Shown: piece by piece, positions 22,361 to 25,306 of the stretch
How the letters are laid out: the number at the start of each line of letters is the position of its first letter
Position numbering within the stretch: position 1 is the stretch's first letter
Origin: Melioribacteraceae bacterium
Lineage (GTDB): Bacteria > Bacteroidota > Ignavibacteria > Ignavibacteriales > Melioribacteraceae
Reading direction: 5' to 3'
Length of the DNA: 32,103 nucleotides
Assembly (NCBI GenBank): GCA_015493615.1
Contig: WGCV01000006.1
Location: forward strand, 1-32,103
Made by a program: the position numbers and the translations under genes
Notes under the pieces: generated by a model
The model's database searches: none
What the model was told of the DNA's origin: nothing
What the model saw: only the letters and a program-made list of their open reading frames with translations

Positions 22361-23845
22361 TTATTTTATTTTCAGTTGTAATAACAAAAGTATTGTAGTT
22401 GCTACACCGCCGATAATACCTACAATCGCAGAAGTACGCCGTAAGAAGAAATCGAAACCAACCGGTTGGTTCTTTTTAGCATAAATAAAATCACCAGGTT
22501 CTATTTTATAATCAGATTGAAAGTGAATATCAACACCAGTTATTGGAATTGATATTTCACCAATGCTCACCCAATCTCTTGTTTTTCCTTTAATTAAATA
22601 CAAATCACTTTCACCGTAGGCAATTTCAGAAAAACCGCCGGCTTCTTGAATGTAATCCTTCGCTGTTTTATCTGGAGAGTATTGATAATATCCCGGATTT
22701 TTCACTCCGCCCCAAACATAAATGTACTCTTCTTTTCGTGGAACAATTATCACATCGCCGTTTCTGACCAAGAAATTTGCTTCAACGCTTTTGGAGCTGT
22801 CAAGTTTTCTAAAATCCAAATTCGGACTGTAATCAAGTAGGCGAAGCGAGTTATCGATATTAAACATCAACGTGTCTTCCAAACGCAAATTTGCCGTCCG
22901 GTACATTCTTAAATATTCCAATGTTCGGGAGTTGAGCAGCTTTTCTTTTTCTTCGGGAGTTAGGGGATAACCTTTAAGATTTTCGAGCGTTGCTTTTTTT
23001 CTGAGAGAAAGCTGGTCGTCGTACTTGCGGATAAGCTGCGCAAACTTTAGCGATGCGTTGGAGGTAAAGCCCCCCGCTTCGGTAATTACATCTTTCAAAG
23101 TTGTGTTTACGGGAGTAATGGGAACCCAGCCAGGTGTGCGGACTTCGCCGATTACCAAAACCTTGTAATCCTTCCTGAAGTTCTCGTCAAAAAGCACTCT
23201 GACTCTGTCGCCGCGTTGCAAAGGGAAATTATCATTTAAGTTAACGATAATTTTTTCTGTTGAAGTTCCGTCTTTTGTAATTCTGACAATTTCAGCTTTT
23301 GTTAAATTATTAAAAGCTTTGTTCAAACCTCTTGCAAAAAATAACGCTGTCTGTAGATTGTCTCCTTCAACAAATTGAAATTTAACATTTTTATTTACAG
23401 CACCCGAGACCGCAACAAAGTTACGCTCTAAATCGAGAGGAGGGAAAATTAAAATATCTCCGTTTTTTAGATATGGGTTATTCTTAAAATTTCCGCTCAA
23501 TCTGAATTTAGCCAAATCGATGATTTGTTTTGTACCGTCGGCGTGTTTTAATACTATATTTCGTTCGGCGTATTTTTCATATTTTTCTCTGAACTGAACT
23601 AACGCTGCGTCGTTTTTTATTCCGCTGAGCATTACGCCTCGAGCCGTATTATAAACTCGTGTTACAAATTGATCAACCCGTTCCGTCGAAGATGCGGGGA
23701 ATGTGCCGTTTGTAATAAACTCTCCTCCGATTGTAACTGAGATTTGCATTAAGCTAGCTTGTGAAATTAGATTTTGCGTATTGTTATCCTGTGCAAAACC
23801 GACTGTCGATAAAAACATCACGATAATAAATATTTTAAGTTTCAT
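22361..23845 (-). CDS. Polysaccharide export protein with SLBB domains (Wza-like)
   Basis: A 494-residue secreted protein. I choose ATG 23845 because the next 18 residues (MKLKIFIIVMFLSTVGFA) form a signal peptide with AAGGTG upstream; the frame extends ten codons further without support. After a poly-export-like entry (VTIGGEFITNGTFPASSTERVDQFV), SLBB-type repeats follow: VAVSGAVNKNVKFQFVEGDN, VLVIGEVRTPGWVPITPVNT...ITEAGGF and IYVWGGVKNPGYYQYSPDKTAK...IQEAGGF. YKIEPGDFIYAKK and a C-terminal hydrophobic segment (last 20 residues) close it. It probably forms the periplasmic/outer-membrane exit of the polymer with Wzz. The 5' half looks less AT-rich than the 3' end, so recombination inside the gene is possible. 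Confidence 0.88.
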   Translation of the reverse strand: MKLKIFIIVMFLSTVGFAQDNNTQNLISQASLMQISVTIGGEFITNGTFPASSTERVDQFVTRVYNTARGVMLSGIKNDAALVQFREKYEKYAERNIVLKHADGTKQIIDLAKFRLSGNFKNNPYLKNGDILIFPPLDLERNFVAVSGAVNKNVKFQFVEGDNLQTALFFARGLNKAFNNLTKAEIVRITKDGTSTEKIIVNLNDNFPLQRGDRVRVLFDENFRKDYKVLVIGEVRTPGWVPITPVNTTLKDVITEAGGFTSNASLKFAQLIRKYDDQLSLRKKATLENLKGYPLTPEEKEKLLNSRTLEYLRMYRTANLRLEDTLMFNIDNSLRLLDYSPNLDFRKLDSSKSVEANFLVRNGDVIIVPRKEEYIYVWGGVKNPGYYQYSPDKTAKDYIQEAGGFSEIAYGESDLYLIKGKTRDWVSIGEISIPITGVDIHFQSDYKIEPGDFIYAKKNQPVGFDFFLRRTSAIVGIIGGVATTILLLLQLKIK

Positions 23846-23861
23846 TTTCACCTTATAATTT

Positions 23862-24293
23862 ACCACAAAGACCACAAAGGAGGCACAAAGTCAGAGAATG
23901 ACTCTTCTTATTCCATCTTTGAGTCTTGCGACATTAAAGTTTATTAATAATCCCAATTTTATATTTGATAATTTCAAATATATTAAAATTTGTGCAAGAT
24001 GTACATTGTTTAATGTTTCAACAGCTTTTAATTCGATTAATAATTTATTTTCAACTAACAAATCTATTCTATAGCCAATATCCAATTTAACTTCTTCATA
24101 AATTAATGGCAAAGCTTTCTGTTTTTCTACAAAAAGTTCGGCTTGATTAATCTCATAAAACAAAACTTCTTCATAAGCAGATTCCAATAATCCGGGACCT
24201 AATGCTTTGTGAACTTTAATTCCTAAACCGATTACAATATTAGAAAGCTCATTTTCATTCATTTCTTTGTGACTTCTTTGTGTCCTTTGTGGT
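23862..24293. mobile_element. GxxExxY cassette bounded by inverted CACAAAG arrays
   Basis: CACAAAG occurs at 23864-23870, 23873-23879 and 23884-23890. Its complement CTTTGTG occurs at 24265-24271, 24276-24282 and 24285-24291. Counting inward from either end the spacings are 9 then 11 nt, so the two arrays are mirror images. The outer words also agree (ACCACAAAG on both sides). The 432-bp unit contains exactly one gene, and its stop codon touches the inner heptamer. It interrupts an otherwise tightly packed operon between rfbB and wza. No transposase and no clear target-site duplication are seen. Confidence 0.6.
23891..24262 (-). CDS. GxxExxY protein (PDDEXK_3 family, nuclease-like fold)
   Basis: A 123-residue protein. 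The name motif is G24-L-L-E27-S-A-Y30 in LGPGLLESAYEEVL. A PD-(D/E)XK-type core follows: YRIDLLV with D67, then IELKA with E77 and K79, and a helix with Q91 in LAQILIYLKLSN. The end NFNVARLKDGIRRVIL is the standard family ending. Members (PF13366) are common as isolated short genes; their biochemical role is not established to my knowledge. All putative catalytic residues are kept, so the gene looks intact. It lies between rfbB and wza inside symmetric CACAAAG arrays, so it is probably an insertion and not part of polysaccharide synthesis. Confidence 0.92.
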   Translation of the reverse strand: MNENELSNIVIGLGIKVHKALGPGLLESAYEEVLFYEINQAELFVEKQKALPLIYEEVKLDIGYRIDLLVENKLLIELKAVETLNNVHLAQILIYLKLSNIKLGLLINFNVARLKDGIRRVIL

Positions 24294-25306
24294 TATCTTT
24301 TTTTGTACTGTTTTTCATAATATTTCAAATAATCGCCACTAATAATACCTTCCCACCAACTGCGATTGCCTTTGTACCATTCCACCGTTTTAACAATAGC
24401 GTCTTCAAACCGGAATTCAGGTTTCCAGCCAAGTTCGTTTTGAATTTTTGAAGAGTCGATTGCGTAACGCCTGTCGTGTCCCGGACGGTCCTTAACGTAC
24501 TCGATTAAATCTTCCGATTTACCGAGTATTTGGAGTATCAATTTTACTATTTCAATGTTCGTCATTTCCTGACTTGCGCCTACATTGTAAACCTCGCCAT
24601 CGCCGCCGTTTTCCAAGGCGAGTTCAACAGCGCGGTTGTGGTCGATTACATAAATCCAATCGCGAACGTTCATGCCGTCCCCGTAAATAGGGAGTTTTTT
24701 GTTGTGAAGAGCGTTTATAATCATTAGCGGAATTAATTTTTCGGGGAACTGCAGCGGACCGTAATTGTTGGAACAGCGTGTAATCGTTACCGGCAATCCG
24801 TACGTGTGATTGAACGAAAGCGTCGCCATGTCCGCTCCCGCTTTACTTGACGAGTACGGGCTGTTGGGAGAAAGAGGAGTAGTTTCGGTAAAAAGTCCCG
24901 TAGCTCCGAGCGAGCCGTAAACTTCGTCCGTGGAAACCTGCAGGAACTTATCAACATTATGATTTCTCGACGCTTCGAGCAGAACAGCCGTCCCGACCAC
25001 ATTTGTCCGGTAAAAAACTTCCGAGCCGAGAATGCTTCTGTCCACATGAGACTCTGCGGCAAAATTTATAACATGATTAATTTCATATTTATCAAAAAGA
25101 TAATCGAGAAGCTCTCTGTTGATTATATCTCCTTTTACGAAAACGTAGTTTGGGTTATCTTCCACTTCTTTAAGATTTTCAAGATTTCCCGCGTATGTTA
25201 ATTTATCCAAGTTAACAATAAAATAATCGTCTCTTGTTTTCAAAATATGATTAATAAAATTGCTCCCGATAAATCCTGCTCCTCCGGTTACTAAAACTTT
25301 CTTCAT
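24293..25306 (-). CDS. rfbB: dTDP-glucose 4,6-dehydratase
   Basis: A 337-residue extended short-chain dehydrogenase that converts dTDP-glucose to dTDP-4-keto-6-deoxyglucose with bound NAD. Visible: the NAD motif VTGGAGFIGSNF (6-17), AAESHVDRSI (about 83-92), the STDEVYGSLG segment with its catalytic acids, YSSSKAGADM with the catalytic tyrosine and lysine, TRCSNNYGPLQFPEKLIPLM and the GDGMNVRDWIYVIDH substrate motif. Length is normal. AAGGGG before the ATG overlaps the stop region of the preceding gene 9 bp away. No rfbA, rfbC or rfbD follows here; the product more likely feeds the DegT aminotransferase downstream or enzymes encoded elsewhere. Confidence 0.96.
   Translation of the reverse strand: MKKVLVTGGAGFIGSNFINHILKTRDDYFIVNLDKLTYAGNLENLKEVEDNPNYVFVKGDIINRELLDYLFDKYEINHVINFAAESHVDRSILGSEVFYRTNVVGTAVLLEASRNHNVDKFLQVSTDEVYGSLGATGLFTETTPLSPNSPYSSSKAGADMATLSFNHTYGLPVTITRCSNNYGPLQFPEKLIPLMIINALHNKKLPIYGDGMNVRDWIYVIDHNRAVELALENGGDGEVYNVGASQEMTNIEIVKLILQILGKSEDLIEYVKDRPGHDRRYAIDSSKIQNELGWKPEFRFEDAIVKTVEWYKGNRSWWEGIISGDYLKYYEKQYKKR

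Follow-up and report, generated by a model that had tools for sequence, protein, structure and literature searches.

A GxxExxY gene framed by inverted CACAAAG arrays: a candidate REP/RAYT-like cassette with a predicted PD-(D/E)XK nuclease

Introduction

According to passages of two papers (PMC2817692, PMC8266576), the REPtrons of the REP/RAYT systems consist of a single gene located between two inverted cognate repeats, the repeats and the protein coevolve, and cognate repeats without a gene are scattered with an abundance tied to the gene. In the stretch of 32,103 nucleotides analysed here (the window; Melioribacteraceae bacterium, GenBank assembly GCA_015493615.1, contig WGCV01000006.1, positions 1 to 32,103), a GxxExxY gene is likewise framed by two inverted cognate arrays. 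The word and the protein diverge together, and gene-less GxxExxY arrays are scattered and linked to the presence of the gene. RAYTs, however, belong to the HUH tyrosine transposases and use single-stranded hairpins as substrates. The GxxExxY enzyme is instead of the PD-(D/E)XK type, and its sites are arrays of tandem 7-mers, the two arms of which hardly pair rank by rank. By analogy, the GxxExxY cassette works like REP/RAYT but is not a member, because it has another enzyme and apparently another type of site.

The Coxiella 23S rRNA IVS is 428 nt long, has complementary ends and one ORF, and is excised by RNase III; its stem is 28 bp with one mismatch and a bulge (passages of PMC4990558). The cassette is similar in being a unit of about 430 nt with one small ORF between complementary ends. 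The IVS differs in its location in 23S rRNA, its unrelated protein (S23p) and its stem instead of tandem words, whereas the window cassette is located between rfbB and wza and encodes a PDDEXK_3 protein. The Rpn nucleases (PF04754) are PD-(D/E)XK proteins proposed as promoters of DNA mobility, and RpnA has little if any sequence specificity in vitro (passages of PMC5350276). The likeness lies in PD-(D/E)XK proteins tied to DNA mobility; in contrast to the GxxExxY case, no cognate arrays are named in these passages (PMC5350276). TAACTGA direct repeats of Beggiatoaceae, some Bacteroidetes and Cyanobacteria have been proposed as translational sites (passages of PMC4679880). They are also short intergenic heptamer arrays, but they are direct repeats of another word, with no gene framing described in the same passages (PMC4679880).

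The GxxExxY family is barely mentioned in the open-access literature searched; one mention, in a passage of its source, is an annotation aside. No earlier description of an array-framed GxxExxY cassette was found in this literature, and searches with the array sequence strings gave nothing on GxxExxY arrays. The CACAAAG in a passage of a P. gingivalis MITE paper was rejected as a candidate, being part of an unrelated end.

Results and discussion

Cassette in the window

The features of the cassette are summarized in Table 1. The CACAAAG words start at 23864, 23873 and 23884 on the forward strand and at 24285, 24276 and 24265 on the reverse strand, and the steps inward from either outer end are 9 and then 11 bp. 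The earlier note had described three words on each side, inverted and spaced in this manner around one intact GxxExxY gene, and the coordinates confirm the description. CACAAAG was observed 13 times in the window against 3.43 expected, and 13 was reached by none of 100 shuffles. The two-word array pattern CACAAAGN{1,6}CACAAAG has four matches in the 3.15-Mb genome, all at the window locus, and the reversed pattern has none.

Table 1. Features of the GxxExxY cassette and its neighbours (window coordinates)
Feature	Position	Strand	Basis or remark
5' array (gene start side)	24265..24294	-	AACC + 3x CACAAAG, spacing 9 and 11
3' array (gene stop side), inverted	23860..23890	+	TTACC + 3x CACAAAG, spacing 9 and 11
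GxxExxY gene, 123 aa, predicted minimal PD-(D/E)XK nuclease	23891..24262	-	TIGR04256, PF13366, AlphaFold2 + Cas4 SSO0001 match
rfbB stop codon TAA, also start of the element-end consensus TAACC	24293..24295	-	
Codon of residue 122 (Ile), predictor of CAC rather than CGC words	23897..23899	-	Word covariation
Codons of E77-x-K79, ExK part of the putative active site	24026..24034	-	Aligned-protein conservation
Codon of D67, putative active site	24062..24064	-	169/169 aligned proteins
Codon of E27 (E of GxxExxY)	24182..24184	-	168/169
rfbB-like flanking gene (NAD-dependent epimerase/dehydratase)	24293..25306	-	PF16363, PF01370
wza-like flanking gene (SLBB), start placed at ATG 23845	22361..23845	-	PF10531, PF22461

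The cassette is a 432-bp unit within a polysaccharide cluster. The stop codon of rfbB contains the beginning of the first array (TAACCACAAAG), and the opening of the array as TAACC at this stop codon is common to all three occupied loci of the genus (the window, L150 and L151). The start of wza is probably the ATG at 23845, not the automatic GTG start inside the array (window 23845-23875). A Pfam scan of 15 ORFs of the window revealed no transposase. Between the arrays there is no DDE, DEDD, Tyr or Ser transposase, the sole gene there matching PDDEXK_3 only; in this respect the cassette differs from a classical insertion sequence. Thus, the location between rfbB and wza and the lack of an own transposase, as first described, are correct. 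CRISPR genes were absent from the window ORFs scanned, and no Rfam match was obtained in the window.

The genome of the window has four further GxxExxY genes. As judged by eye, three of them are bounded on either side by inverted words of different kinds, and the fourth (L001) shows no array.

Predicted nuclease

The GxxExxY protein scores 137.9 bits against TIGR04256 (cut-off 35) and 132.9 bits against PF13366 (cut-off 22). PF13366 is PDDEXK_3 of Pfam and the only Pfam family matched. Rpn (PF04754) is absent from the Pfam matches at E 0.001, which distinguishes the protein from the Rpn nucleases, and an HUH tyrosine transposase was not matched in the Pfam scan. The motif corresponds to G24, E27 and Y30, kept in 169, 168 and 168 of the 169 aligned proteins, respectively. 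The nuclease-like triad D67, E77 and K79 pointed out in the earlier note is present and conserved (169, 168 and 169 proteins), as are Q91 (166) and Y95 (167).

The AlphaFold2 model has a pLDDT of 93.5. Its top PDB structure match is Cas4 SSO0001 (4ic1; Z 9.8, rmsd 4.3, 100 residues; Foldseek probability 1.00, E 6e-3), and the further fold matches are mostly PD-(D/E)XK enzymes with Z of 8.1 and below. Foldseek gave no match of the model at E 0.001, and no clear PDB relative was found by sequence (best E 0.76). The Cas4b PADLOC model matched the protein at E 0.021, a marginal sequence relation. According to the model, the GxxExxY fold is that of a minimal PD-(D/E)XK nuclease, nearest to Cas4, and nuclease activity is predicted. 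The protein resembles the Cas4 and lambda exonuclease type in the best fold match and in the conserved E27, D67, ExK, Q91 and Y95, whereas it is much shorter and its sequence relation is marginal.

Selection and gene context

The dN/dS ratio was calculated for 20 pairs of copies, and nine pairs with dS undefined or above 2 were excluded from the pooled ratio. The pooled dN/dS over the 11 usable pairs is 0.081; nine of them lie at 0.02-0.14, and the others at 0.34 and 0.58. Several pairs are located in the same gene context (by eye). The low ratio and the shared context indicate that the protein is kept by selection where it is located. Such values point to strong purifying selection on the copies and would not be expected of a resident transposon that evolves neutrally. 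Damaged GxxExxY copies were also found. A phage origin was rejected: no match was obtained in 50,697 phage records, and two peptide patterns gave one in IMG/VR. GxxExxY matches are present in eight plasmid records.

According to simple ORF calling, the upstream neighbour is co-directional with the GxxExxY gene in 51 of 65 cases and the downstream neighbour in 59 of 64, compared with 117 of 173 control pairs. Both this placement and the strong purifying selection fit an alternative explanation: a domesticated, host-serving protein binds the flanking and scattered arrays and so regulates its own operon, chromosome structure or repair, past moves were due to host recombination, and the nuclease is not mobilising. 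The scattered gene-less arrays described below also agree with it. However, an array is present after the stop codon too, where it is unneeded for an operator. Moreover, up to 12 copies and several word classes per genome look like spread, and broken copies exist. We regard a domesticated binder as unlikely.

Inverted arrays and word classes

The loci comprised the best 80 of 358 relatives, 35 loci of the window genome and relatives (34 placed; L126 was dropped as not placed, and the same gene was recovered as L179) and 60 additional stretches. Flanks were compared at 111 loci of the first two groups, three of 114 being dropped for a flank shorter than 60 bp, and 169 loci were used for the tree and class analyses, five of 174 being dropped for a flank shorter than 100 bp.

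The best ungapped inverted flank match is at least 12 in 56% of the 111 loci. The same score is found in 1% of 333 dinucleotide shuffles and 13% of 550 between-locus swaps, but in none (0%) of 103 pairs of flanks taken 800 bp farther from the gene. A survey of this kind had been suggested for the family, and it shows that matched inverted word arrays are not confined to the window. Direct flank matches of equal size (at least 12) are found in 24% of the same 111 loci, and clustering of the arrays in both orientations would explain them. In the predicted orientation, words of the form CRCNRAG have a density of 17.0/kb on the upstream side and 18.9/kb on the downstream side, where shuffles give 0.76 and 0.62; in the opposite orientation, the densities are 6.0/kb and 6.2/kb.

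The word classes are A (CACAAAG), B (CACGGAT), C (CAGAATC), D (TCATGATT) and E (CGCTAATTCGCG); their naming is post hoc, since the class expressions were drawn up after inspection of the flanks. Class A arms have two to four words each, and one arm has eight. For the first two steps, 9+13, 9+11 and 9+12 are most frequent, and the outer consensus ahead of the first word is TTAACC.

The tree of the 169 proteins is based on a short alignment of 128 columns, and many of its forks are unresolved. On this tree, the word class changes six times among the 74 labelled copies, those of the window genome included and 23 of the 169 loci without a class excluded. With shuffled labels 34 changes are needed (minimum 28), and with labels shuffled within genomes 29 (minimum 20). 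At least two word classes are present in 20 of the 23 genomes having at least two labelled copies. Over all pairs, the 6-mer content of the flanks is correlated with protein identity (Mantel 0.34, 0/199 permutations; far flanks -0.03). The raw 6-mer content within genomes showed no significant correlation with protein identity (81 pairs, rho 0.14, p 0.21), and the word-class tree test took the place of this correlation. As read from the tree, the array word class follows the protein clade, even inside single genomes.

Residue 122 and the second letter of the word

Class A words with CAC and with CGC differ in their second letter, and this letter is concordant between the two arms (rho 0.91, 64 loci). 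In a scan of the alignment columns, residue 122 is Ile with CAC and Val with CGC. The CAC:CGC counts of the discovery set are 47:2 for I122 and 4:36 for V122, with mixed CAC/CGC loci (5 I, 3 V) and five A-122 loci omitted. With the left arm alone, the counts are 37:1 and 4:28. As the link holds for this arm, the DNA of the codon, located at the opposite gene end, cannot be the cause.

The rule for residue 122 was recorded beforehand, and 105 further loci were then fetched, 104 of them with a protein new to the set and some from genomes sampled earlier. For I122, CAC was found at 21 of these loci and CGC at one; for V122, CAC at four and CGC at 20. These 2x2 counts omit mixed loci (11 I, 3 V) as well as loci with A (five), K (one) and Y (one) at this position. 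In either set, residue 122 ranks first among the columns. Of 40 disjoint nearest pairs taken from both sets, 32 show the change from I to V together with that from CAC to CGC, none shows the opposite, and eight are uninformative; the next best columns have a surplus of eight. A strict tree test restricted to well-supported branches gave 2.5 of five contrasts for and none against the rule, which is not significant with too few contrasts. The predicted exceptions (Y/F-V-L ends) matched only some of the exceptions in the new set.

The word class tracks the clade, and one letter of the word can be predicted from residue 122. Recognition of its own arrays by the protein is therefore very probable. 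This recognition had been proposed in the earlier note and is strongly supported at the level of sequence. The protein would bind the tandem words in double-stranded DNA, with a distance of about 20-22 bp, or two helical turns, from the first to the third word. Residue 122, near the C-terminus, would help to tell CAC from CGC, as the covariation suggests. We consider this mode of binding, with residue 122 aiding the discrimination, to be highly likely.

Four-helix-bundle cassettes

Four-helix-bundle genes (TIGR02436) of the same genomes also have flanking inverted arrays, with words unlike those of GxxExxY. The TIGR02436 model is presumably that of the 23S rRNA IVS protein (23S-IVP/S23p) family. 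An inverted score of at least 12 was obtained for 50% of 18 loci. The share was 3% among 306 swapped pairs and 0% among 17 pairs further out; 12 of 30 loci were left out of this control as no suitable ORF was placed. Examples of such array loci are L393, L395, L399, L401, L414 and others of L390-L419. Two or more unrelated proteins thus share the design, which makes it harder to argue that movement is due to the nuclease activity itself.

Binding site or paired stem

Words within one arm agree at position 2 with a frequency of 0.864, compared with 0.500 at random. Between the arms (103 loci), the agreement at position 2 is 0.919 for words of the same rank and 0.886 for those of different rank, and at position 4 it is 0.659 and 0.625. 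The between-arm agreement of the spacers is 0.415 for the same rank and 0.408 for different rank, compared with 0.304 for other loci. A stem needs complementarity rank by rank, which separate binding sites can do without. Therefore, the nearly rank-independent agreement favours protein binding over a stem.

These data bear on an RNA-level explanation, in which the arms pair in the transcript as in the 23S IVS, RNase III excises the cassette, and the spread is RNA-based or by recombination. The size is similar to that of the 428-nt Coxiella IVS (passage of PMC4990558), TIGR02436 genes carry inverted arrays, and the placement is co-directional. The window arms are able to pair (-28 kcal/mol), and duplexes of the real arms are slightly more stable than those with shuffled spacers (mean z -0.68, 30 loci). 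However, same-rank agreement is hardly above different-rank agreement, and the common origin of the arms would also yield the small excess in duplex stability. With hardly any rank-specific complementarity between the arms, the RNA-stem reading is mostly rejected, and we consider it quite improbable. As to a hairpin substrate, little rank-specific arm pairing was found, yet the arms can pair and the gene-less copies are often inverted pairs.

Gene-less arrays

Of the 247 genomes sampled in the phylum, 122 have GxxExxY genes, and the copy number reaches 12 per genome. Strict class A arrays (three-word pattern) are present in 58 of the 247 genomes, and the reversed-pattern control gave 0 in every genome. 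The gene was found in 54 of the 58 array-bearing genomes and in 68 of the 189 array-free genomes (Fisher p 1e-15, with the kinship of genomes ignored and the two genome lists matched by hand). Arrays equally common without the family, the outcome that would speak against a link, were not observed: class A-type arrays are present in four of 125 genomes without GxxExxY genes, compared with 54 of 122 with the family. Among the 58 nearest genomes, the gene is present in 20/20 array-bearing and 27/38 array-free ones (p 0.01). With the looser two-word pattern, it is present in 31 of 34 array-bearing genomes.

In 30 array loci fetched with the strict pattern, a GxxExxY gene is located within the stretch in seven. 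Many gene-less array loci are tail-to-tail pairs around GGTTAA..TTAACC. At L249 and L267, a GxxExxY gene is not just enclosed by two half arrays but has a complete palindromic unit (<<<>>>) as its neighbour on one side or on each. Strict arrays number 15 to 23 in each of four genomes (G081, G215, G249, G264), the listed ones being mostly uniform CGCAAAG, which suggests amplification of gene-less arrays. At L248:1786-2389 (G011:C155), two small genes resembling a Phd/RelE-type toxin-antitoxin pair (by eye) are located between class A inverted arrays.

The small share of array loci with a GxxExxY gene in the stretch (7/30) and the toxin-antitoxin-like pair in L248 would fit generic intergenic repeats, that is, an independent repeat family near which GxxExxY genes landed by chance. 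This explanation is disfavoured and hardly credible because the class follows the clade within genomes, the arms agree, the letter can be predicted from residue 122, and few genomes that lack the gene have arrays (4/125).

Occupied and empty junctions

Thirty wza loci were fetched, and rfbB is located close upstream in 20 of them. The cassette is present at three of these 20 junctions, all in the genus of the window, and one of the genes is decayed. The other 17 are gene-free. Sixteen of these are arrayless, with at most one word inside rfbB or immediately before wza; in the remaining one, L164, an inverted array is present on its own. In L156, of the same genus as the window, rfbB abuts wza directly. 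The empty rfbB-wza junctions sought in relatives therefore exist, and a gene that is always present without arrays was not seen. In L163, a GxxExxY gene is located upstream of wza and rfbB is absent there. The GxxExxY genes before wza in L163 (another genus) and L151 (the same genus) are 61% and 80% identical to that of the window, respectively.

Similar pairs of sites were found elsewhere. In Sphingomonas parapaucimobilis, a GxxExxY gene splits fabD and fabG, with 464 bp between them, and the fabD-fabG gap is roughly 14 to 32 bp in five fetched records of other Alphaproteobacteria. In Bacteroides finegoldii, a GxxExxY gene is located between radA and the gene of an FAD protein. The radA-FAD junction is 13 bp in Parabacteroides distasonis and holds other DNA, with no GxxExxY match, in Phocaeicola massiliensis. 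The empty sites are too diverged from the occupied ones to define a target-site duplication. According to the occupied and empty junctions (rfbB-wza, fabD-fabG and radA-FAD), the gene and the arrays mostly act as one unit, as had been supposed for the window. As occupied sites are scarce, we infer the direction of change, gain or loss. From these comparisons, the cassette is probably a mobile unit.

Proposed mechanism

The gene and its arrays are probably gained and lost as one unit at gene ends in operons, mostly along the direction of transcription. The nuclease may nick or cut at the arrays and so help to move or copy the cassette, with host repair joining the ends, and it may act in trans on the scattered gene-less array pairs of the same genomes. 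That the protein cuts the arrays and moves the cassette, and the gene-less pairs in trans, has in our estimation an even chance of being right. For the cassette as a whole, we lean towards a self-recognising, REP/RAYT-like mobile unit on an unrelated PD-(D/E)XK nuclease, its movement being perhaps driven by the protein.

The earlier note had called the cassette a selfish element, and half of this view holds: the gene and array unit is gained and lost, but purifying selection acts strongly on the copies (pooled dN/dS 0.08, 11 pairs). Both this selection and the occurrence of the same design around four-helix-bundle genes speak against a simple selfish transposon. Since many copies are kept by selection after insertion, array binding probably serves the host to some extent.

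Tentatively, and with chances somewhat short of even, array-framed small-ORF cassettes may form a category of mobile DNA by design, in which a small protein reads the tandem word at the ends of its own gene and the word and the protein co-diverge. The GxxExxY lineage would cut double-stranded arrays, moving itself and gene-less pairs, and the four-helix-bundle (IVP-type) cassettes would be a second, unrelated lineage.

Conclusions

If cutting of double-stranded arrays moves the cassette, it would be a categorically new kind of element and would supply a PD-(D/E)XK-based counterpart to the REP/RAYT systems. The GxxExxY family would gain a concrete role, namely clade-specific word recognition with a one-residue switch (I122/V122) for CAC/CGC. 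One class of intergenic repeats, in Bacteroidota as well as in other phyla, could be accounted for by the cassettes, and the word-by-clade code could give many small sequence-specific DNA binders.
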